Below, piece by piece: positions 10,179 through 55,230 of a DNA stretch of 64,000 nucleotides (position 1 is its first letter; each line of letters starts with the position of its first letter). The stretch comes from Phytohabitans rumicis (GTDB taxonomy: Bacteria; Actinomycetota; Actinomycetes; Mycobacteriales; Micromonosporaceae): NCBI RefSeq assembly GCF_011764445.1, contig NZ_BLPG01000001.1:3162001-3226000 (forward strand), given 5' to 3'. Under the pieces are notes generated by a model. It did not search any database. It was not told the DNA's origin and was given only the letters and a program-made list of their open reading frames with translations. The position numbers were made by a program, and so were the translations under genes.

Positions 10179-11281
10179 TCCCCCTGGTCGATCTGCAGGC
10201 CGCGCACGTCGAGGTGGCCGAGGACGTCGCCGTCGGCTTCAAGCGCATCCTGGACAACACCGCATTCGTCGGCGGCGAAGAGGTCGCCGCCTTCGAGCGG
10301 GAGTACGCGGAGTTCTGCGACCTGCCGCACTGCGTGGGCGTCGCGAACGGCACCGACGCGCTTGAGTTGGCGCTGCGGGCCGTGGGCATCGGGCCCGGCG
10401 ACGAGGTCGTGCTCCCGGCCAACACCTTCATCGCCACCGCCGAGGCGGTCGCCCGGACCGGCGCCACCACCGTGGTGGTGGACATCGACCCGGCGACGTA
10501 CCTGATCGACGTGGACGCCGCGCTCGCCGCCGTCACGCCGGCCACCCGTGCCGTCGTACCGGTGCACCTGTATGGGCAGCTCGCTCCGGTGGAGGCCCTG
10601 CGGGCCGCGCTGCCGGCGGAGGTCGCCATCGTCGAGGACGCCGCGCAGTGCCAGGGCGCCACCCGGCACGGACGGCCGGCGGGCTTCGAGGGGATCGCCG
10701 GGACGAGCTTCTACCCCGGCAAGAACCTCGGCGCGTACGGCGACGCCGGCGCGGTCGTCACCGCGTCCGCCGAGCTGGCCACGGCCGTACGCCGGCTGGG
10801 CAGCCACGGCGGCCTCACCAAGTACGTCCACGACGTCATCGGCGTGAACAGCCGGCTGGACGCCCTGCAGGCCGTGGTCCTGCGGGCGAAGCTGGCCCGG
10901 CTGGCCCGGTGGAACGACGCCCGGCGGGCCGCCGCGGCGCGGTACGACGAACTGCTGGCGCAGGTCGACGTCGTCCGCCCGGTCACCCTCGACGGCAACG
11001 TGCACGTCTGGCACTTGTACGTCGTGCGGGTGCCCGGCGACGGCACACCCGCCCGCCGCGACGCGGTGCTGCGCGCCCTGAACGCCGAGGGCGTTGGTGC
11101 CGGGATCCACTACCCGGTGCCGGTGCACCTGACGCCGGCGTTCGCGCAGGTGGCGCGCCGGGCCGGCGACCTGTCCCGGACCGAACTGGTGGCCGACGAG
11201 ATCCTGTCCCTGCCGATCTACCCGCAGATCACCGCCGACCAGCAGGAACAGGTCGTCACGGCGCTGCGCGCCGCGCTCTGA
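10175..11281 (+). CDS. DegT/DnrJ/EryC1/StrS aminotransferase (second, FdtB/WbpE-like)
   Basis: 368 residues starting at a TTG that overlaps the upstream TGA (TTGA). The TTG is chosen because the protein then opens with the family's usual N-terminus 'IPLVDLQAAH'. 'GVANGTDALELALRAVGIG', 'IVEDAAQCQGA' and 'SFYPGKNLGAYGDAGA' (Schiff-base K183) are typical of WbpE/FdtB-type transaminases that aminate C-3 of a keto sugar nucleotide. It is the last gene of the operon and is followed by a three-hairpin intergenic region. It is the best partner for the WbpB-like oxidoreductase and WbpD-like acetyltransferase. Confidence 0.93.
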   Translation: MIPLVDLQAAHVEVAEDVAVGFKRILDNTAFVGGEEVAAFEREYAEFCDLPHCVGVANGTDALELALRAVGIGPGDEVVLPANTFIATAEAVARTGATTVVVDIDPATYLIDVDAALAAVTPATRAVVPVHLYGQLAPVEALRAALPAEVAIVEDAAQCQGATRHGRPAGFEGIAGTSFYPGKNLGAYGDAGAVVTASAELATAVRRLGSHGGLTKYVHDVIGVNSRLDALQAVVLRAKLARLARWNDARRAAAARYDELLAQVDVVRPVTLDGNVHVWHLYVVRVPGDGTPARRDAVLRALNAEGVGAGIHYPVPVHLTPAFAQVARRAGDLSRTELVADEILSLPIYPQITADQQEQVVTALRAAL

Positions 11282-11293
11282 CCACGGCTAAAG

Positions 11294-11368
11294 AGGTTTT
11301 GGGGCCGGGGTGCCTCGCGAAGCCCGTCAGGCTTGATGTCTTCGCGAGTCACCCCGGCCCCAAAACCT
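11294..11368 (+). terminator. Long hairpin (outer left) at the convergent operon junction
   Basis: Inverted repeat AGGTTTTGGGGCCGGGGTG ... CACCCCGGCCCCAAAACCT with further pairing inside (CTCGCGAAG/CTTCGCGAG). It begins 12 bases after the second aminotransferase stop. The unit at 11501-11573 is a near-exact reverse complement of it. Confidence 0.75.
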
Positions 11369-11404
11369 GACCAGGGCGTTCCAGTCGAAACACTCACCAA
11401 CTCT

Positions 11405-11459
11405 GGAGTTACCGCCGACCTTTACTTCCCCGGGGACTCAAAGGTCGGCGCTAACTCCC
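11405..11459. repeat. Middle hairpin of the three-hairpin intergenic element
   Basis: Arms GGAGTTACCGCCGACCTTT and AAAGGTCGGCGCTAACTCC flank a loop containing CCCCGGGG. It is centred between the two outer GTTTTGGGG-type hairpins, giving a nested, nearly symmetric arrangement between convergent genes. Confidence 0.75.
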
Positions 11460-11500
11460 TTGTTAAGGCTGAACCATCGCCGTCTTGCTTGACCAGGTCG

Positions 11501-11573
11501 GTTTTGGGGGCCGGGGTGACCTGCGAAGACATCAAGCCTGACGGGCTTCGCAGGGCACCCCGGCCCCCAAAAC
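11501..11573 (-). terminator. Long hairpin (outer right), inverted copy of the left one
   Basis: GTTTTGGGGGCCGGGGTG ... CACCCCGGCCCCCAAAAC. Its internal sequence GAAGACATCAAGCCTGACGG is the reverse complement of the matching part of 11294-11368. It ends 4 bases before the glycosyltransferase stop codon, so it would terminate the minus-strand operon. Confidence 0.75.
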
Positions 11574-11576
11574 TCC

Positions 11577-12776
11577 CTAGTACCCGTAGACCTCGTCCTC
11601 GATCACGTCGACCACGACCCGCTGCGCGACCTCCCACGGCGTCGTCCGGACACTCCCGGCGACGACCGTGGGCAGCGGCGCATCCGGGCCTACGGCGTCG
11701 CTGAGCGCGTCCGCGATCCCGAACGGGGTGGGCTGGGCCCAGCCGATGTACGGGTTGTCGATGCTGGCCTCGGAGTAGCCGCCCGACTGGCCGACGACCG
11801 GCAGCATGCCGCAGGCGAGCATCTCGTCCGGCACCAGCGACAGGTTGGTGAACGACAGCGCGATGCCGGCGGCGCAACGGTTGTAGAGCTCCGCCAGGGC
11901 GGCCGGCCGCAGCACGCCGTGGTTGGTGGCCGGGAACGGCACCCGCGCGTTCGGGTCGCCGAAGAGGTGGATCTCGTGGTCCGGGTGCCGCCGGTGGAAC
12001 TCCCGCAGCGCCAGCACGCCGAGCTCGAACCCGCGCCGGGCGGTCTCCCGCCGGGCGTAGAACACCACGCCCGTGCGTCGATCCGGGTTGGTCAGCCGGT
12101 AGATGCCGGTGTCGACGCCGAACTCCGCCACCGCCGCCGTGACGCCGTACTTCTCCTGGAGCAGGTGCGCCAGCATCGGCCCGACCGTGATGGCCCGGAA
12201 GCCGAACCGGTACGTGTCCTCGGCCAGCACGTGGTGGGAGCCGAGCGGGTAGAACCACGGCTCGAAGTCCTGGACGAAGTAGAGCCGCCGGGTCGGTACG
12301 GCGGCCGACGCGATCAGGTGCGCCGTCTCCCAGCCCGAGGCGACGTACGCGTCGATCGGCGCCAGCCCGTCCGTGACCGACCGCACCTCGGCCCGCATCT
12401 TGGGCCAGAACCGCCGGATGGTCTGCTCGTGCCGGCCCGGGTCACCGTGGTAGCGGTCGTAAAGGTAGAGCACGCACTTGTGGCCGGCCGCCTCCAGGCC
12501 CTCGACCATCCGGAAGAGCGTGGTGTGGCCGCCGGAGCCGGGCGCCGGCGGGGTGCTGACCCAGCCGATCGTCAACGGCGTGCCCTTGGCCGGGCGCCGG
12601 TCCGGGACCACGAGCTTCAGGCCCCGGGAGTCGGTCAGGTTGTCGAAGTCGAGCGGGTTCTCCAGGTCGGCCGCGCCCATCCGCCGGTACGCCACGCGGG
12701 CGGCGCGCTGCGCGAGGCCGCGCGCGCCGTCCCGCTTCAGAACGCCGAGGACCTCGCGGGAACGGGGTCTGCTCAT
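11577..12776 (-). CDS. Glycosyltransferase, GT4/WsaF-like
   Basis: 399 residues. An N-terminal ~65-residue extension is followed by a GT-B fold: 'IGWVSTPPAPGSGGHTTLF' (nucleotide-sugar glycine loop), 'YFVQDFEPWFYPLGS' (a signature of WsaF-type rhamnosyltransferases), 'VAEFGVDTGIYRL', and in the C-terminal half 'GVVFYARRETARRGFELG' and 'SLVPDEMLACGMLPVV'. It probably adds a deoxyhexose or similar sugar to the lipid-linked repeat unit; the sugar specificity is inferred only from the motif. Its ATG overlaps the flippase stop (ATGA). Confidence 0.82.
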   Translation of the reverse strand: MSRPRSREVLGVLKRDGARGLAQRAARVAYRRMGAADLENPLDFDNLTDSRGLKLVVPDRRPAKGTPLTIGWVSTPPAPGSGGHTTLFRMVEGLEAAGHKCVLYLYDRYHGDPGRHEQTIRRFWPKMRAEVRSVTDGLAPIDAYVASGWETAHLIASAAVPTRRLYFVQDFEPWFYPLGSHHVLAEDTYRFGFRAITVGPMLAHLLQEKYGVTAAVAEFGVDTGIYRLTNPDRRTGVVFYARRETARRGFELGVLALREFHRRHPDHEIHLFGDPNARVPFPATNHGVLRPAALAELYNRCAAGIALSFTNLSLVPDEMLACGMLPVVGQSGGYSEASIDNPYIGWAQPTPFGIADALSDAVGPDAPLPTVVAGSVRTTPWEVAQRVVVDVIEDEVYGY

Positions 12777-45558: not shown

Positions 45559-45657
45559 GTAGCACCGACGAACCGGAGGGTCAACGGCGCGGCAGACGCG
45601 CCCGAGCTTGAGGAATATGGATAGAATTGCCCCGTTTGTCCGTACAGGGGGGTGCCA

Positions 45658-45918
45658 GTGGCGAGCGTCGCCGAGGTGAAAGCGGCCATCGATGCCGCGA
45701 TGATGCACGTGCAGGAGGGCCAGGAGGCCGTCCGAGCCGCGAACGAGAAGCTCGGCGAGGCACAGCTGAGCCTGGCCGCCGCCGTCGAGGGCAGCGGGCA
45801 CGAGTCGGTCACCTCCGCGCAGGCCGCGCTCGCACAGGCCGCCACCGAACTGGAGGACTGCCTGACCGCCACCCTGGGGGCGATGGACCAGGCACAGCAG
45901 TACGCCGCAGCGCTATGA
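45658..45918 (+). CDS. Small helical protein, DUF6244-like, first gene of the FtsK cassette
   Basis: 86 residues from GTG 45658 (an in-frame GTG at 45652 is equally possible; AGGGGGG precedes both). All alpha-helical, Ala/Glu/Gln-rich: 'SVAEVKAAIDAAMMHVQEG', 'AVRAANEKLGEAQLSLAAAV'. It lacks a W-x-G motif, so it is not a typical WXG100 protein, although size, helicity and position before an FtsK-type ATPase are reminiscent. A TAGAAT (-10 type) lies at 45622-45627. Coupled to the next gene by ATGA. Confidence 0.72.
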   Translation: MASVAEVKAAIDAAMMHVQEGQEAVRAANEKLGEAQLSLAAAVEGSGHESVTSAQAALAQAATELEDCLTATLGAMDQAQQYAAAL

Positions 45919-46868
45919 GCTCGTTGTTGCATGCGCTCGCCTACCGGATACAGGAGGTGGGCGAGGAGCTGCCGATCGGTCAGGTGGCCACCGCCGCCGA
46001 CCGCCTGCGCAGCGCCAACGGCCTGCTCGCCTGGGTGATGCAGGCCAGCGCGACACACGCGCCGGCGCCCACCCTCACCGCCGCCGGTGAGCACCTCGAC
46101 CACGCCGCCGGTGCCATGCTCGCCGCACGCGAGGCGCTCACCGGTTACCTGCTGTCGATCGGGCTGCCGCGGGACGCCGTACCCCCGCCGGACCGGGACT
46201 GGCACGCGGCGCTGGCACCGGCCGCGCCACGGCGACCGCCCGCGGCGCCCGGCCCGCCCACGCTGACCCACTTCTGGGCCGACCGCGTCGAAGTATTGAC
46301 TGATGACTCAGGCAGGCACCCGGACAAGGGCGCGGAGTCCACAGCGGACCTCCTGCACCGCTGCGCCCGCGCGGTCATCGACGAGGACCGCACCCGGCTG
46401 CGCCGGGAGCTGGTCGCGGTGGACCCGGCCGTCGGGTTGGGACTGTCCGCGGTGGCCGCCGCGCCGCTGCGCTTCCTCGCCGCCGAGCTGGTCGGTCACC
46501 CTCCGTCCACACCAGACCTTCCGGGGGTACGTCGGGCCGCCCTGCGCCGCGTACGGACGCTGCTGCCGGCGGTGGAGGAGGTCGTCGTCGACGAGTTGTT
46601 GGCGCGCACGTGCCACGCCCCGCCGCCGAGGCGCGAGCCCGACGAGCGGACCCACCCGGTCGACGCCGCGGTGGTCGCCGGCGTGCTCGTCGGCGCCCTG
46701 CTCGCCGCGAACGGGCGGGACGCGGACGAACTGGCCCGGGTGACCGAGGAGCTGCGCAAGGCCGAAGAGCAGGCGCACAACGAGGACCAAATCGGATTCC
46801 TGGTCGATCGCCGCCGAGCTCAGCCCCGGCTCCTACCGGGATCCGAAGGTGGGCAGCAGCGTGCCTAG
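45915..46868 (+). CDS. Hypothetical protein of the FtsK cassette
   Basis: 317 residues. The N-terminal ~85 residues form a helical region ('LAYRIQEVGEELPIGQVATA', 'GAMLAAREALTGYLLSIGLP') similar in style to the preceding small protein. A Pro-rich linker (~90-125) and a second helical domain with 'EVVVDELLARTC' follow, then 'VDAAVVAGVLVGALLAANG', which is weakly hydrophobic. No known domain recognised. The start overlaps the small helical gene, and its end overlaps the FtsK-like gene by 8 bases, so the four genes form one transcription unit. Confidence 0.7.
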   Translation: MSSLLHALAYRIQEVGEELPIGQVATAADRLRSANGLLAWVMQASATHAPAPTLTAAGEHLDHAAGAMLAAREALTGYLLSIGLPRDAVPPPDRDWHAALAPAAPRRPPAAPGPPTLTHFWADRVEVLTDDSGRHPDKGAESTADLLHRCARAVIDEDRTRLRRELVAVDPAVGLGLSAVAAAPLRFLAAELVGHPPSTPDLPGVRRAALRRVRTLLPAVEEVVVDELLARTCHAPPPRREPDERTHPVDAAVVAGVLVGALLAANGRDADELARVTEELRKAEEQAHNEDQIGFLVDRRRAQPRLLPGSEGGQQRA

Positions 46869-49478
46869 CTCGCGGCCGGGGCTCGTGGCCGACGTACGCC
46901 AGGATCTGTCGGCGGCGCGCGGCCTGACGCGCGCGGCACTGGGCGCGGCGGAGACGGCGCGGGTCGAGGCGCACGGCCGGCGCGACAAGACGAACGCCGA
47001 GCACGGCGAGCGCCTAGCCGGGCTGGTCGGCGCGCGCGAGTCGGCCCGGCAGGACATCCGGGCCCGCTTCGAGTCCCGGGCCGGCGCGCTGGCCGAGGAA
47101 TTGGCCGCGGTAGCGGCGGAGTGCGCGCCCGGGGCGGCCGGAACGTCGTGGCGCGCCTGGCGGCCGACCGAGCCCGAGCGCGGGCGCCGCCCTGGCCTCT
47201 TCCGCATCGGCACGCTCGGCCACGAGCCGGCCGGCGCGGGCACCGTCCTGCCCGCGCTCGTGCCGCTGCTCGATCACGCGCATCTCTCGTTCACCGGCGA
47301 TCCATCCACAGTGGATGGCATGATCGCCGGCCTGCTCTTGCGGGTGCTCGGCAGCACGCGGCCCGGCGAGGTGCGCCTGACCGTGTACGACCCGGAGCAG
47401 CTCGGTGGCAGCCTCGCCGGCTTCGCGCCGCTGGGGAACGCGGACCTGCTCACGTTCGTCGGGCCGGGCGGCCTGACCGGGATGCTCGACGACCTGGTCG
47501 AGCAGATCCGCCGGATCAACGAGAGCGTGCTGGCCGGCGAGTACGCGTCGCTGGCCGAGTTGACCGCCGCGACCGCGGCCCGGCGCCCCGAGCCGTGGCG
47601 GCTGGTGGTGCTGCTCGGCGACGCGGCCACCGCGGCCGACCTGACCGCGGCGCAGCGGGCCCAACTCGACCGCATCGTCCGGACCGGCGTGGCCTGCGGC
47701 GTGCACGTCCTCGCCCGCGGCCTGCCGATCGAGGCGCACCCGACCGTCGAGCACGTCGCGGTGGTGGGCAGCACCGCCGTCTGCGGCACGGCGGGCGACC
47801 TGGCCGTACGCCTCGACGTGCCGCCCGCTGCCGACCGGATCGCCGCGGTCTGCCGCGAGCTGGCCGAGGTGCTGCTGGCCGGACCGCCGCCGGCGCAGTT
47901 CGCCGACCTGGCCCCGGAGAAGCTCTGGGCCGAGTGCTCGGCGGCCGGCTTGGTCGCCCCGCTCGGCGACGGCCCGCACGGCGACCTGGTCGAGGTGCTG
48001 CTCGGCGACGACCCGCCGCACGCGCTGATCGGCGGGCCGTCGGGGTCCGGCAAGACCAACCTCATCTACGCCTGGCTGGGCGCCCTCACGGCCCGCTACT
48101 CGCCGGACGAGCTGGCCCTGTACCTGCTCGACTTCAAGGAGGGCGTGTCGTTCGCCCGCTTCGCGCCGGGCCGGCGGGACCCGAGCTGGCTGCCCCAGGT
48201 ACGCCTGGTCGGCGTCAACGTGAACGGCGACCGGGAGTTCGGCCTGGCCCTGCTGCGGCACCTCGCCGACGAGCTGCGCCGCCGGGCGTCCGCGGCGAAG
48301 CGGCACGAGGCAACCAAGCTGGCCGAGCTGCGCGCCGAGGACCCGAGCGGGCACTGGCCGCGCATCGTCGCGGTGATCGACGAGTTCCAGGTGCTGCTGG
48401 CCGGGCGCGACGCGGTGGCCAACGAGGCGGTCGGCCTGTTGGAGGACCTGGCCCGGCGGGGGCGTTCGCAGGGCATCCACCTCGTGCTCGCCTCCCAGGA
48501 CGTGTCCGGGATCGAGGCGCTGTGGGGGCGCTCCGCGCTGGTCGCCCAGTTCACCCTCCGCATCGCGCTGCCCAAGGCGCGCCGGATCCTCGCCGAGACG
48601 AACCTCGCCGCCGACGTCATCCCGCGCTTCCACGCGGTGGTGAACGCCGACTCCGGCGTACCCGACGCCAACCGGATCGTCCGCCTACCGGACGCCAGCG
48701 ACCGCTCAGCGTGGCGGACGTTGCAGGAGAAGCTGTGGCACGCTCGGCCCGAAGGGCTCGAACCGCCGCGGCTCTTCGACGGCGACGCGGTGCCGCCGTA
48801 CCCGGCGGATCTGGGGGCTTGGCGGGTTTGGCGGCCGACGGCGCCGTGCTCGGCGAGACGATCGACGTACGCGCCCGCCCGGCGGTGCTGCGCCTGCCCC
48901 GCGCGCCGGGGCGCAACCTGGCCGTCCTCGGCACCCGCACGGACGAGGCTTGCGCGGTGCTCGGCGCGGCCGGGCGGTCACTGTCCACGTTGGACTCGTC
49001 GGCGCGGTTCAGCTTGGTGTGCCTGGACGACGACGCCTCCCCCGCGGCCACCGTGCTGCACGCCGCCCTGCCGGACGCCCGCTGGTACGACGCCGACACG
49101 GCACCCGAGCTGCTGGCCGAGCTGGCCGAGGCGCCGGCCGGCCCTCCGCACTACGTCATCGGGTACGCCTGGGACGCCGCGGCCGGGCGGCTGCCGGCCC
49201 TGCGCCACGTGCTGGCCCGCGGGCCGGAGCGGCACATCCATGTGCTCGGCTGGTGGCGCGGGGTCTCCCGGCTCCGCGACGACCTCGGTGGGGCCGGCGC
49301 CCGCTTCGACGCGATCGGCGCCTGGGTGGCCCTGGACGTACACGGCAACGAGCTGGCACCGCTCTCGCCCCAGCCGGGCGGGCCGGCCTGGTATCCACGG
49401 CCGCACCGGGCACTCTTCTTCGACCGTGCCGCGCACCGCGTACCCGAGGTCATCATCCCGTACGAGGTGACCACATGA
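46861..49478 (+). CDS. FtsK/SpoIIIE-type ATPase, frameshifted as sequenced
   Basis: ~873 residues after correction, from GTG 46861 (GTG 46849 is an alternative). A coiled coil (~10-90) is followed by an ATPase-like degenerate domain (~110-330, 'DPSTVDGMIAGLLLRVLG') and then one active FtsK/SpoIIIE domain: Walker A 'IGGPSGSGKTNLIYAW' (~390), 'LYLLDFKEGVSFARFAPG', Walker B 'RIVAVIDEFQVLLAG' (~501) and 'RSQGIHLVLASQDVSG'. The frame changes at the G run 48813-48817. One extra G gives 'GGLAGLAADGAVLGETIDV' and a normal C-terminal domain. There are no membrane spans, so anchoring may come from the next gene. Resembles EccC in part, but with no ESX partners. Confidence 0.87.
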
Positions 49479-50158
49479 GCGTGGCGGAGTACCGGCGGTT
49501 GGTAGGGCAGCTCGCCGGGGCGGTGAGCCTCCGGGACGCGGAGCTGGCCGCCGCCGAGCGGTCCTATCAGGACGGCGCGGCGGCCGCGACCACCGAGCTG
49601 GCCCGGGCGAACGCCGAGGCCGGCGAGGCCGATCGGCGAGCCGGTGCGGCGGCCACCGCCGTGGTGGACGTGGACCGCGAGGCGGCCCGGCTGTGGGACG
49701 AGCTGCGCGGCGCGGGTGGCTGGCTGACCCGCCTCCGGCGCCTTGGCGAACTACCCGCACCCACCCCGGACGACCTGCTCCCGGACGCCAACCCGGTCGA
49801 GCTGCTCGACGCCGCCGCCAAGCGGATCGACCAGACCCGCCGCGGGGCTCCCCGCCCACCGGTGCCCCGCTGGGTGTTGCCGCTACTGCCCCCGCTGGGC
49901 GCGGCGGCCGCCGCGATGACCGGCCTGGTGGCGGGCGGCCTCGTGACGCTGGCCCACTTCGACACCGGCCTGGAGTGGCCGCTACGGCTGCTGGGCTGGC
50001 TGGCCTTCCTGCTCGCCCCCTTCACCGGCGTCCCTCCCGCCGCCATCCTGATAGACCGCGCCTGGGGCAGCCGCCTGGACGCCGGCGCGCTGGCGCTGGT
50101 GGTGGTAGGCGGCCTAAGCGCCGGCTGCGCCCTCTCCCTAGCCTTCGCCCACAGCTGA
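49475..50158 (+). CDS. Coiled-coil membrane protein, last gene of the FtsK cassette
   Basis: 227 residues, ATGA overlap with the FtsK-like gene. Residues ~1-75 are a long coiled coil ('ELAAAERSYQDGAAAATTEL'). Two to three membrane spans follow at ~135-160 ('WVLPLLPPLGAAAAAMTGLV'), ~170-195 and ~202-224. It is a good candidate for the membrane anchor or channel of the ATPase. No domain recognised. Confidence 0.72.
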   Translation: MSVAEYRRLVGQLAGAVSLRDAELAAAERSYQDGAAAATTELARANAEAGEADRRAGAAATAVVDVDREAARLWDELRGAGGWLTRLRRLGELPAPTPDDLLPDANPVELLDAAAKRIDQTRRGAPRPPVPRWVLPLLPPLGAAAAAMTGLVAGGLVTLAHFDTGLEWPLRLLGWLAFLLAPFTGVPPAAILIDRAWGSRLDAGALALVVVGGLSAGCALSLAFAHS

Positions 50159-50305: not shown

Positions 50306-53300
50306 ATGCGCATGCGCTCCCTCTTTGCACTCGCCGCAGCCGCCGTCCTACTTGTGCCCGCCGCCCCCGTCCGGGCGGCCGAGGCGGCGGAAATCACGGA
50401 CGGTCTCGTGCTCTGGTACAAACTCGACGGTTCCGCGGCCGACTCCTCGGGTCACGGCCGCGACGGCGTCGTCAACGGCACCCCGACCTGGACGGCCGGG
50501 GAGGGCCTGGGCTTCAACGGATCCGACACGTACGTCAAGGCCCCGGACAGCGTGCTGAGCGGGCTCACCTCGGTCAGCGTCTCGTTCGACGTGCTGATCG
50601 ACCCGACGCAGAGCACCCCGTACTTCATCTATGGGTTCGGCAACTCCAGCGGCAGCAGCGGCAACGGCTACCTTTTCACCACCGGCAACGGCTTCCGGAC
50701 GTCGATCGCCACCGGCAACTGGTCGACCGAGCAGACCACCTCGGCGCCGTACAGCCTCTTCCGCGGGGCGTGGAAGCATGTGACGTACACGCAGGCCGGC
50801 AACACCGGGATCCTGTACGAGGACGGCGTGGAAGTGGGCCGCAACACCGGGGTCACCACCACCCGGGTGCGATCGGTGGCGGCGTGACCACGGCCAATTA
50901 CATCGGACGGTCGGTCTACTCCGGCGACCGGCTCTTCAAGGGCCGGATCCGCGACTTCCGGATGTACGACCGGGCGCTCACCGGTGGCGAGGTCGGGCAG
51001 CTGGCCGTGCCGGCGACCACGCAGGGCGTCGCGCAGGACACGGCCGCCCTCAGCCTGGGCGACACCAGCGCGGTGACCGCCAACCTGAGCCTGCCCACCA
51101 CCGGGGCGTACGGCTCGGCCATCAGCTGGGCCACCAGCGACAGCTCCGTGGTGACCGCGGCCGGCGTGGTCACCCGCCCCGGGTTCGGCCAGCCCGACGC
51201 CCATGTCACCCTGACCGCGACGCTGAAGAGAGGGGCGGTGACGGACACGAAGACGTTCGACGTCACGGTCCTCGCCGAGTACGACGACCAGCGGGTCGCC
51301 GACGCGGCGGCCGCCGCGCTGGCCGTGCGAAACATCGACGACGTACGCGGAAACCTGACCCTGCCCGCGACCGGCCAGAACGGCACGACGGTGGCCTGGG
51401 CGTCGGCGAACCCGGCGGTCGTGTCCGCCACCGGCGAGGTCAACCGGCCGGCGCACGGTGCCGGCGGCACGACGGTGGAGCTGACCGCCACGGTCACCAA
51501 GAACGCCGCGAGCGCCACCCGCACGTTCACCGCCACCGTGCCGGAGCTGCCCGCGCAGGAGGGCCTGACCGGGTACATGTTCAGCTACTTCACCGGCGAG
51601 GGCACGGCCAACGGCGAGCAGGTCTACTTCGGACTGAGCAAGGGCAACGACCCGCTGCACTGGCGCGAGCTGAACGGCGGCAACCCCGTCCTCACGTCCA
51701 CATTGGGCGAGAAGGGGCTGCGCGACCCGTTCATCATCCGTTCGCCGGAGGGCGACAAGTTCTACCAGATCGCGACCGACCTGCGCATCTACGGCAACGG
51801 CAACTGGGACGCCGCGCAGCGTACGGGCAGCAAGTCCATCATGGTCTGGGAGTCGACCGACCTGGTGCACTGGACCGACCAGCGCCTGGTGCAGGTCTCG
51901 CCGGACACCGCTGGCAACACCTGGGCGCCGGAGGCGTACTACGACAAGGGGCTCGGCGCGTACGTGGTCTTCTGGGCGTCCAAGCTGTACGCCGAGGACG
52001 ACCCGAGCCACACCGGCAACACCTACAACAAGATGTTGTACGCGACGACGCGTGACTTCCACACGTTCAGCGAGCCGAAGGTGTGGGTCGACCCGGGCTA
52101 CTCCGTCATCGACTCCACCATGGTCGAGCACAACGGCACGTACTACCGCTTCACCAAGGACGAGCGGAACAACACCTCCTCGACGCCGTGCAGCAAGTTC
52201 ATCACCGAGGAGAAGGCGACGTCCATCCTGGACCTGAGCTACGACTTCGTCGCCGACTGCATCGGCAAGGGTTCCATCAACCAGGGCGAGGGCCCGACCA
52301 TCTTCAAGTCGAACACCGAGGAGAAGTGGTACCTGTTCATCGACGAGTTCGGTGGGCGCGGCTACGTCCCGTTCGAGTCGACCGACCTGGAGTCCGGCGT
52401 GTGGACGATGTCCACGAACTACGCGCTGCCGTCCCGGCCCCGGCACGGCACGGTGCTCCCGGTGACGCAGGCCGAGTACGACCGGCTGCTCGCCGCGTAC
52501 GCCGTACCGGTGACCGGGGTGAGCGTGACGCCGGCCGAGCTGACCCTGGCCCGTGAGGTCAACCGGCAGCTCAGCGCGACCGTGACGCCGTCCAACGCGA
52601 CCGTCCCGGACGTGACGTGGTCCAGCAGTGACGAGTCGGTGGCCACGGTCAGCGAGGTGGGCATGGTGCACACGCTCGCGCCGGGCACCGCCACCATCAC
52701 CGCCCGCACGGCCGACGGCGGGAAGACGGCCAGCACGGTCGTCACCGTCACCGACCAGTACCCGACGGATCTGCTGCTGCGCTACGAGTTCGACGAGACG
52801 AGCGGGACGACCGCGCGCGACTCGTCGGGGCGCGGCAACGACGGCATCTATGAGCGCTCGCCCGGCTTCGGCACCGGCGTCACGGGCGGCTCGGTCAAGC
52901 TGTCCGGCGGCGCCAGCGGGTCGAGCACCGCGCCGTACGTCACCATCCCCAATGGAGTGTTGGCCGGGGCGGACAGCGTGACCGTGTCGGCGTACGTCAA
53001 GTGGACCGCCTCGACCACCATCAACCAGTGGATCTACGGCCTCGGCCCGGACAGCACCAAGTACCTGTTCACCGGGCCGCGCAACGGCGGTGGCGTGCTG
53101 TACTCGGCCCTCACCACCGGTAGCTGGTGGTCCGAGCACAACCTGCCGACCGGCGCGGCACTGCCCGGCGGCAGCTGGCAGCACATCGCGGTCACCGTGG
53201 ACTCCTCCAGCCAGACCGCGGTCATGTACCTCAACGGGGCGCAGGTGGCCCGGGCCACGAACGTCACCGTCAAGCCGTCCGACCTGTACGACGCCACGAA

Positions 53301-55230
53301 GAGCTACACCGGCTACATCGGACGATCGCTGTACTCGGCGGACCCGTACTTCGCCGGCGAGGTGGACGACTTCCGGATCTACAACCGGGCGCTGCCGCAC
53401 AGCGAGATCCTGGCGCTGGCCGGCAACACCACCGGCATCGCGGTCGCCGCGGTGCCGGAACTGAAGGTGGACGCGATCGTCGACGACGCGAACAGCAAGG
53501 TGGTGCTGCCGGTCAAGGAGGGCACCGACGTTCGCAAGCTGGCGCCCGGCTTCGTGCTGGCGCAGGGCGCGACGATCAGCCCGGCGTCCGGTACGACGCG
53601 TGACCTCACCACGCCCGTCACGTACGTGGTGACCGGCGCGGACGGGGCAAAGAGGACCTGGACCGTGGAGGCCAAGGTGATGAAGAGCCCGGTGCTGCCG
53701 GGGCTGTACGCCGACCCGAACATCGTGGTCTTCGGCAACCGCTTCTACATCTACCCGACGACGGATGGCTTCGCCGGCTGGAGCGGCACCCAGTTCAAGG
53801 CGTTTTCGTCGACCGACCTGGTGCACTGGGAGGACCACGGGGTCATCCTCGACCTCGGGCCGGACGTCTCCTGGGCGGACGACAGCGCGTGGGCGCCGTC
53901 CATCGTGGAGAAGAACGGGAAGTACTACTTCTACTTCAGCGGTGGCATGTCGACCGGCGACACCCGCAAGCACCTCGGCGTCGCGGTCGCGGACTCCCCC
54001 ACCGGGCCGTTCCACGACGCGCTCGGCAAGCCGCTGGTGCCCGCGGGGACGTACTCCGGTCAGATGATCGACTCTGCGGTCTTCACCGACGACGACGGCA
54101 GGTCCTACCTGTACTGGGGCAACGGCAACTCCTACCAGGTGCCGCTGAACGACGACATGGTCTCGTTCGACCCGGCCCAGGTGCGCACGTACAAGCCGAC
54201 CAACTACAACGAGGGCACCTTCGTCTTCAAGCGCAACGGCCTGTACTACTTCACCTGGTCGGAGAACGACACCCGCAGCGAGGACTACCAGGTGGCGTAC
54301 GCGACCGGCACGTCCCCGCTCGGGCCGTGGAGCGAGCGCAAGGGCGTGTTCCTCGCCAAGGACCTGTCGCTGGGCATCAAGGGCACCGGGCACCACTCGG
54401 TGGTCAACGTGCCGGGCACGGACGACTGGTACATCGCGTACCACCGGTTCGCGATCCCGGGCGGCGACGGCACGCACCGCGAAACCACCATCGACAAGCT
54501 GGAGTTCGAGGCGGACGGCACCATCAAGAAGGTGGTGCCCACATTGGAGAGCGTCGAGCCGGTCGTCAACCACGCCCCGGTGGCGGGCAGCGTGGCCGGT
54601 CCCTTGACGCCGGTGGCGATCGGCGCGGACGCGACGGTGAGCGTGCCGTTCACCGACGTGAACCCGACCGACCTGCACAGCTGCGCGGTGGACTGGAAGG
54701 ACGGCACGGTGTCCGCGGGCACGATCGCGGGCGGGCAGTGCACGGCCACCCACCGGTACGCCGGCCAGGGCGTCTTCGAGCCCGTGGTCACCGTCGCGGA
54801 CCTGCGCGGCGGCTCAGCGACGGCGACCCTGTCGTACCTGGTGACGTACAACGCGGCGGGGTCCTATGTGGCCGGCAGCGGCACGATCGACTCGCTCGGC
54901 GGGCGGGGCGTATTCGGGGTGACCGCCGGTACGGCCCAGCGCAACGGCGCGATCGCGCTGCGCTTCCGGACCGGTGACGTGGACTTCTCGGCCACCACGT
55001 ACCAGCGGCTGGCGCTGGGCAACCGGGAGGCGACGTACACCGGCGTGGGCACGCTGGCCGGCCGGGGCGAGTACGCGTACACGGTCTCGCTCGAAGACGG
55101 GCGGACCACGGACCGCTTCTGGATCCGGATCACCAACAAGCGCACCGGCGCCGTGGTGTACGACAGCCGCTACCGCTGCGGCACGGAACTCATCGCCACC
55201 GGCGCCATCCTTATCAAGACAGGCCGTTAG
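50306..55230 (+). CDS. Giant secreted protein with two GH43 domains, frameshifted near the 5' end
   Basis: ~1640 residues after correction. The signal peptide (to ~25) is followed by LamG-like domain 1 (~30-230, broken at the C run 50862-50864; one extra C gives 'TTTPGAIGGGVTTANYIGR') and two Ig-like domains. GH43 domain 1 (~417-730) has 'GLRDPFIIR', 'VIDSTMVEHNG' and 'INQGEGPTIF'. A Big_2 domain (~732-817), LamG 2 (~820-1040) and a short beta domain come next. GH43 domain 2 (~1131-1418) has 'LYADPNIVV', 'MIDSAVFTDDDG' and 'NYNEGTFVFKR'. PKD-like and C-terminal beta domains end the protein. Each GH43 shows the Asp, Asp, Glu set. Probable target: arabinan, xylan or arabinoxylan. Confidence 0.88.

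Follow-up and report, generated by a model that had tools for sequence, protein, structure and literature searches.

A family-wide Micromonosporaceae cassette with a span-free EssC-type ATPase and putative WXG100-like partners

EssC-like ATPases which are free of membrane spans, in which only the central domain is active and which are accompanied by WXG100-type partners, one of them a hairpin protein without the WxG motif, are described in the sections of PMC11090510 that deal with these ATPases. According to the same sections such operons also occur stand-alone (citing Anantharaman 2012), and defensive protein secretion is predicted as their function. Here we analyze a cassette of four genes, A to D (positions 45658–50158), in a stretch of 64,000 nucleotides from Phytohabitans rumicis (NZ_BLPG01000001.1, positions 3,162,001 to 3,226,000), in the following called the window, and we conclude that this cassette is a new, family-wide stand-alone version of the span-free EssC/WXG100 kind. 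An earlier note, made from the letters of the window, had presented the cassette as a candidate for an undescribed system, which was too strong given the span-free EssC-like ATPases with WXG100-type partners in the cited sections of PMC11090510. A description of the cassette itself was not found among the papers listed by searches of the open full-text literature, subscription papers being outside the scope of this search.

The four genes are adjacent and all lie on the plus strand. As the earlier note had it, they are joined by overlaps: the start of B (45915) precedes the end of A (45918), the upstream start of C (46849) lies inside B, which ends at 46868, and D starts (49475) within the last codons of C. 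With the alternative start of C at 46885 there is no overlap with B.

The ATPase C and its kinship

Gene C (46849–49478) encodes an ATPase with one FtsK domain (Pfam FtsK_SpoIIIE, E-value 7.3e-16) and intact Walker motifs, which bears out the single active FtsK domain proposed previously. Walker A (GPSGSGKT, 48034–48057) was read from the sequence and is kept across the C family; Walker B (VIDEFQ, 48373–48390) was read from the sequence and the alignment of the C family. In the window the gene is interrupted by a frame break (48810–48836), of which relatives have intact copies. The part up to the break (46849–48812) comprises the N-terminal part, a weakly ATPase-like first domain and the EccC/EssC-type domain with the Walker motifs, and the part after the break (48837–49478), which is in another frame, comprises a third, degenerate domain and is 79–84% identical to three relatives.

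Of the NCBIfam models EccCa fits the C member shown best, and it matches all 23 C members (best E-value 1.3e-30). The EssC and EccCb models each match 23 of 23 as well, the FtsK model matches nine, and CedB, a model of DNA import, matches all 23 weakly (best E-value 8.8e-6). FtsK-gamma gave no Pfam match in the two C frames scanned. Among solved structures the best relatives of C are 4nh0 (E-value 5e-25), YukB (8e-19) and EccC5 (4e-16), and FtsK follows at 4e-7; 4nh0 was deposited as 'Cell division FtsK/SpoIIIE' and we take it to be an EccC. The central domain of C aligns with the D1 domain of EccC/EssC (hhalign E-value 1.5e-31), and for residues 1–118 no alignment to EccC/EssC was obtained.

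Two ATPase trees were calculated, with 29 and 32 rows and 196 columns; both are unrooted, FtsK is in neither, and the C-family rows L200, L202 and L211 as well as the poorly aligned L257 were left out. A branch with a support of 100 and a length of 0.95–0.96 separates the 11 EccC/EssC rows from those of C, of the related third-set ATPase C3 and of the span-free relatives. On the other side of this split the 32-row tree holds a C group (support 98), a group of the nine span-free relatives (support 100), which includes a row from a CoCoNuT-like operon of Caballeronia, and the two C3 rows (support 91). Judged by this tree C is a lineage of its own, close to the span-free ATPases and outside the EccC/EssC group. 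The earlier note had asked whether the ATPase groups inside the EccC or the chromosomal FtsK clades; C falls outside EccC/EssC with full support for the split, and the FtsK model matches only nine of the 23 C members that EccCa matches throughout. The sequence DEFQ stands in Walker B of all 13 C rows, of seven span-free relatives (all of the nine but L251 and L272) and of one EccC/EssC row out of 11 (L259).

In a hydropathy scan no hydrophobic stretch was found in 10 of 13 C frames, and one stretch was found in the other three. The nine span-free relatives (L250–L255 and L270–L272) have none, the C3 of L266 has one, and 10 of the 11 EccC/EssC rows have one or more; the exception, L263, is the latter of two pieces of one motor, of which the former (317 amino acids) has two hydrophobic stretches. 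The previous assertion that the ATPase is free of spans and that the last gene supplies them agrees with most C frames and with the three stretches in the D of the window.

Hairpin proteins, gene D and conservation of the cassette

Gene A (45658–45918) encodes a helical protein of 86–88 amino acids (86 from the start at 45658; translation might also begin with the GTG at 45652). Among Pfam families WXG100 matches the largest number of A members, namely 17 of 22 (best E-value 8.5e-4). The five best matches of A to solved structures are the uncharacterized protein 4lws (E-value 0.046), ESAT-6 twice (0.07), an apolipophorin (0.22) and a 'low molecular weight protein antigen 7' (0.32), presumably an Esx protein; with this assumption three of the five are of the ESAT-6 family by name, two of them being the same protein. 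In the same kind of sequence search none of these ESAT-6-type matches was obtained with B or D, and nothing convincing was found for B. Going by the profile matches, A is weakly related to WXG100 proteins and is devoid of the WxG and YxxxD/E motifs. The absence of a WXG motif had been noted before and holds for all 22 A members, but A is not clearly unrelated to WXG100, as the 17 matches indicate. One tyrosine is invariant in the alignment of A and one in that of B. Loosely defined, the type VII pattern HxxxD/ExxhxxxH, given in the part of PMC3935865 consulted, is present in 10 of 22 A and eight of 23 B members; defined more strictly, it is present in one of 22 and five of 23, respectively.

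Gene B (45915–46868) encodes a protein of 317 amino acids, the length reported before, with an A-like hairpin at its N-terminus and a helical domain at its C-terminus. The N-terminus of B aligns with A (hhalign E-value 8.3e-6, probability 83.5). The AlphaFold2 model of B (mean pLDDT 84.2) is all-helical and predicts a hairpin at about residues 1–85, a linker of low confidence at 99–113 and an all-helical C-terminal domain at about 117–300, the C-terminal part being confident. In genome G331 (L211, 7585–11313) B and C are fused in one clean open reading frame of 1243 amino acids, with B at residues 3–285 and C at 345–1242. From this fusion it would seem that B acts on C and does not have to be exported by itself.

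Further A-like genes are found, single or in tandem, at other loci of Micromonosporaceae genomes (L180–L199). A role of A as a polymorphic-toxin partner was considered and rejected: the extra A-like genes of eight genomes have mixed surroundings among the loci listed. Of eight proteins from these loci seven have no Pfam match at an E-value of 0.05 and one matches WXG100 (0.023).

Gene D (49475–50158) encodes a protein of 227 amino acids with three hydrophobic stretches, which begin at residues 141, 175 and 201; five D relatives have one to four such stretches. The N-terminal half is, as judged by look, helical and rich in alanine and glutamate.

The conservation of the cassette was followed in 150 Micromonosporaceae genomes. 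Neighbors were counted by order, strand and a spacing of a few kb with intervening genes allowed, and the five weakest C rows (G413, G442, G402, G305 and G438) were left out, so that the neighbor counts are lower bounds. The profile of A had matches in 127 genomes, that of B in 121, that of C in 132 (E-value 1e-60 or better) and that of D in 105. The genes A, B and C stand side by side and in this order in at least 114 of the 150 genomes; the co-occurrence on which the earlier note wanted its proposal to depend is therefore borne out by the profile searches. Within the genomes having B, A adjoins B in at least 116 of 121 and C adjoins B in at least 119 of 121. D adjoins C in at least 104 of the 150 genomes, and all four genes are together in at least 89, a count in which the divergent D may be missed. 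In a sample of 296 genomes from the phylum, which held only two Micromonosporaceae genomes, A was found in four: in these two and in two others with weak matches (E-values 4e-4 and 7e-4, in open reading frames of 633 and 538 amino acids) which we have taken as chance. The nearest named relatives of C are from Phytohabitans, whose genome analyzed here has 10.7 Mb, and from other Micromonosporaceae. Gene calls were made with a custom codon-bias finder which was trained partly on the cassette genes and may miss genes, mainly in genomes of low G+C content.

The ratio of nonsynonymous to synonymous substitutions (dN/dS) of the cassette genes is 0.03–0.41 against three near relatives and 0.25–0.90 against the more distant L031, the highest value being that of D. 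Together with the recurring A-B-C arrangement these values speak for more than a chance grouping of genes. A changes most slowly, with a mean column identity of 63% (C 49%, B 39%, D 34%) and with a dN/dS of 0.03–0.06 against the near relatives and 0.25 against L031.

Twenty representative loci from 20 genomes were inspected for their surroundings: six lie at one site (site I), ten at another (site II) and four elsewhere, so that 16 of 20 are in two shared chromosomal regions. Site I, which is also the kind of site of the window, we take to be a nucS/DUF4126-mutase region, and site II is presumably marked by an NYN-type gene; the neighbor names nucS, DUF4126, NYN, Clp, mutase, folE and LamG are our assumptions from looks at the sequences. 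The source genome has both kinds of site, the window (site I) and L042. In the ATPase tree, which does not contain the C of the window, the support is 83–85 for a group of L001, L003, L012 and L031 (site I) and 100 for a group of L042, L201 and L215 (site II). As the rows of the two sites group separately, the arrangement fits an old duplication followed by vertical descent. Two near-identical transposase-like open reading frames were seen in L042 (12699–13478) and L044 (12349–13623), and the one upstream of the second cassette is shorter.

A third set of the source genome (L043) has the order C-D-A and lies beside what we take to be folE; in Pfam searches its A matches HsbA (0.03) and its D nothing. 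In G204 the third set (L266, 5947–8766) has a C3 without Walker A and without the second acidic residue of Walker B, which is likely a dead ATPase. In the C3 of the source genome Walker B is intact, but the gene is split over frames.

The window cassette has as its neighbors what we take to be a LamG-type gene and a divergent operon of the GntR/ABC kind. Scans of the locus for promoters and terminators yielded nothing above shuffled sequences, and an Rfam scan gave no match at the gathering level.

Mode of action and alternative readings

How might such a cassette work? We suggest a motor of the EssC type that stands alone, has no spans and works with WXG100-like hairpins as its partners, and we hold this to be the best explanation and, by a small degree, a probable one. 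C would form a ring around one active ATPase domain of the EccC/EssC type with two degenerate flanking domains. B would sit on C and present its A-like hairpin together with its helical domain, A might pair with the hairpin of B in the manner of the Esx proteins of type VII secretion, and A could then open or feed the motor. D would provide the membrane part which EccC and EssC carry in their own chain, with C docking on D; if D supplies this part, the motor would consequently work at the membrane. The job of the machine would be an ATP-driven movement or remodeling of proteins that carry or bind such hairpins. Most likely the cassette moves or remodels proteins at the membrane. The observations behind this explanation are the gene set with its order and conservation, the nearest kin of the ATPase, the similarity between the hairpins of A and B and the clean fusion of B with C, and it is further favored by the plasmid relatives of C described below, one of which has an A-like neighbor; the ring, the pairing of A with B, the docking on D, the protein cargo and the action at the membrane are proposals.

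Several observations weigh against this explanation. The WXG100 kinship of A is hardly ahead of other families, as Trypco1 matches 15, DUF6244 14 and an ABC-transporter domain 12 of the 22 A members (for DUF6244 no mention was found in the open full-text literature). The A of the window scores 12.5 bits, where the Pfam gathering cut-off of WXG100 is 27.3, and is matched better by DUF1090 and Exonuc_VII_S; single matches to solved structures are weak (E-values 0.05–0.3). Neither WxG nor the export motif YxxxD/E occurs in any of the 22 A members or in the first 110 residues of the 23 B members. The first and the third domain of C align only weakly with ATPases (E-values 2e-4 and 1.3e-3). As the trees are unrooted, C and the span-free ATPases are not established as a single clade. 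D is divergent, and its one to four spans come from a simple hydropathy scan. A second apparent fusion of B and C (G412, L273, 335–4219, 1295 amino acids) is doubtful, the last ~50 positions of B being in another frame. In addition, 22 of the listed C loci have D and no adjoining B, in line with pairs of the Actinoplanes type; B thus need not be encoded there.

The strongest of the alternatives is that the cassette is a defense system like those around its relatives outside the family, which we regard as unlikely. The C profile finds ATPases on plasmids with E-values of 8e-123 (Rhodococcus, L270), 7e-77 (Caballeronia) and 7e-71. The Caballeronia operon has the order VWA, WXG100, FtsK-like, CARF, VWA, PP2C and kinase, and in our reading it corresponds to the extended CoCoNuT operon of Type III-A in PMC11090510, for which the consulted sections of that paper predict defensive protein secretion. 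On a plasmid of Rhodococcus pseudokoreensis (L270) the operon consists of Hsp70, TPR, GrpE, FtsK, a 203-amino-acid protein and an 86-amino-acid protein, and on another Rhodococcus plasmid a C relative lies near TerD. The 86-amino-acid protein is A-like (E-value 5e-6); the 203-amino-acid protein has one hydrophobic stretch, is not matched by the D profile and can be called an analogue by layout only. In L254 a span-free EssC-like ATPase lies beside JAB and ThiF genes, which were identified by Pfam in L254 alone; L252 and L253 look alike, and the operons of L252–L254 have a protein of 154–157 amino acids before JAB/ThiF and small helical proteins, one of which in L252 is weakly WXG100-like. After the A-like gene of L270 there follow, at 10698–11969, a 272-amino-acid protein with HG and SC sites and a 134-amino-acid protein, both without Pfam match; we take the HG and SC sites for a caspase-like pattern.

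Against a defense function speaks the position of 16 of the 20 representative loci in either of two shared chromosomal regions, and for this reason a mobile or defense island was set aside as the principal interpretation. Moreover, inspection of the flanks of the cassette by eye, not by profile search, revealed nothing recognizable as a gene of the VWA, kinase, phosphatase, CARF, McrBC or nuclease type. PADLOC gave matches of the FtsK domain (mad8, SspH) and otherwise weak ones, and A is almost invariant in near relatives, with the low dN/dS given above.

A different view of the same motor dispenses with export. The lack of an export motif, the B-C fusion and the near-invariant A favor A as a working part over an exported effector, and this is the ground for supposing a segregase: B would hold A on the motor, A would stay in the cell, and a ring anchored by D would pull or unfold membrane or cytosolic proteins, which we consider a doubtful but possible variant. 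The corollary, that the cassette is a vertically inherited, type VII-related housekeeping system of the Micromonosporaceae kept as two old paralogues, we put forward as tentatively.

The window copy could also be a decaying pseudogene or an assembly error and tell little about a working machine. In the window C is in one frame up to ~48.81 kb and then in another to 49478, and C of L001, L033 and L002 is matched in two pieces, with 84.7–88.8% identity in the first and 79.4–84.0% in the second. As these three close relatives match in two pieces and 12 of 12 aligned relatives read through in a single frame, the tail of the 873-residue ATPase reading frame of the earlier note is meaningless, the frame break near 48.81–48.84 kb having been overlooked. 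Some other C matches of the family search cover only a part of the profile, so that there may be further broken or divergent copies. The source genome also has its C3 and its second copy of B split over frames. Next to the cassette a LamG- or glycosidase-type gene (50306–55230; the type is our assumption) is likewise split between frames relative to L002, which hints at assembly indels, and we infer that the breaks in the C of the window, the LamG-type gene, C3 and the second B have this origin. Programmed frameshifting in C was rejected because the 12 aligned relatives have C in one frame. The dN/dS of C against three near relatives is 0.14–0.15 before and 0.16–0.21 after the break (against L031 it is 0.45 and 0.43), and both parts of C are under purifying selection with regard to these near relatives. 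That the window copy tells little about a working machine for such a reason appears improbable, and it would have no bearing on the family-wide system.

Quite improbable is a DNA pump of the FtsK/SpoIIIE kind, serving for example septation or sporulation of these mycelial bacteria: it shares the FtsK_SpoIIIE fold, and the CedB model matches every C member, but EccCa fits these far better and FtsK only nine of them, FtsK-gamma was not matched in the two scanned frames, and a protein cargo is the better fit to WXG100-like partners. An ordinary ESX/T7SSa locus (type VII secretion system of the ESX type) with lost or scattered parts, suggested by the EccC-like motor next to a hairpin protein and by EccC-type loci elsewhere in the same genome, is very improbable, since C is not in the EccC/EssC group, no hydrophobic stretch occurs in 10 of 13 C frames and the same gene set recurs across the Micromonosporaceae.

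Comparison with known systems

With the ESX/T7SSa systems and T7SSb–j, as treated in the consulted part of PMC11217815, the cassette has in common a motor of the EccC-D1 type beside small helical proteins. It differs from them by the unanchored motor, by the lack of WxG and of YxxxD/E and by the split in the tree. The absence of EccB, EccD, EccE and mycosin stated in the earlier note agrees with our inspection, in which none of these, nor an EsaB-type protein or a kinase, was recognized beside the cassette in gene calls looked through by eye and not by profile. The type VII genes listed for Micromonospora lupini in the part of PMC4182475 consulted include an eccC (40438) outside the three clusters; this gene may or may not be a copy of C. 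With chromosomal FtsK and SpoIIIE the cassette shares the fold of the FtsK_SpoIIIE ATPase, and it differs by its EccC-type domain and its hairpin partners.

The plasmid operon of L270 is similar in that a near-full-length C homologue (the match of E-value 8e-123), a protein with a hydrophobic stretch and an A-like protein follow in a row. In contrast to the cassette it is plasmid-borne, has chaperone genes in front, follows the order C-D-A and contains no B-type gene.

Closest are the span-free EssC-like/WXG100 operons of Type III-A CoCoNuT and TerY-P systems, as far as they are covered by the cited sections of PMC11090510: in both cases the ATPase has no spans, its central domain is the active one and hairpin proteins, in the cassette weakly WXG100-like ones, are its presumable partners. 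The Caballeronia ATPase of the CoCoNuT-like operon lies on the same side as C in the split from EccC/EssC, whereas the C rows make up one group (support 98) and the Caballeronia row belongs to another (support 100). The cassette further differs by D as a separate protein with hydrophobic stretches, by a B with an additional helical domain, by its location in shared chromosomal regions and by two hairpins which both lack WxG. If our explanation is true, type VII-like motors operate throughout a bacterial family with neither the usual membrane partners nor the known export motif, and the activities of motor and hairpin by themselves, which are obscured in the larger ESX systems, become open to study. 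The cassette would also offer a chromosomal, stand-alone test bed for those ATPases which are predicted to serve the CoCoNuT and TerY-P defense operons.

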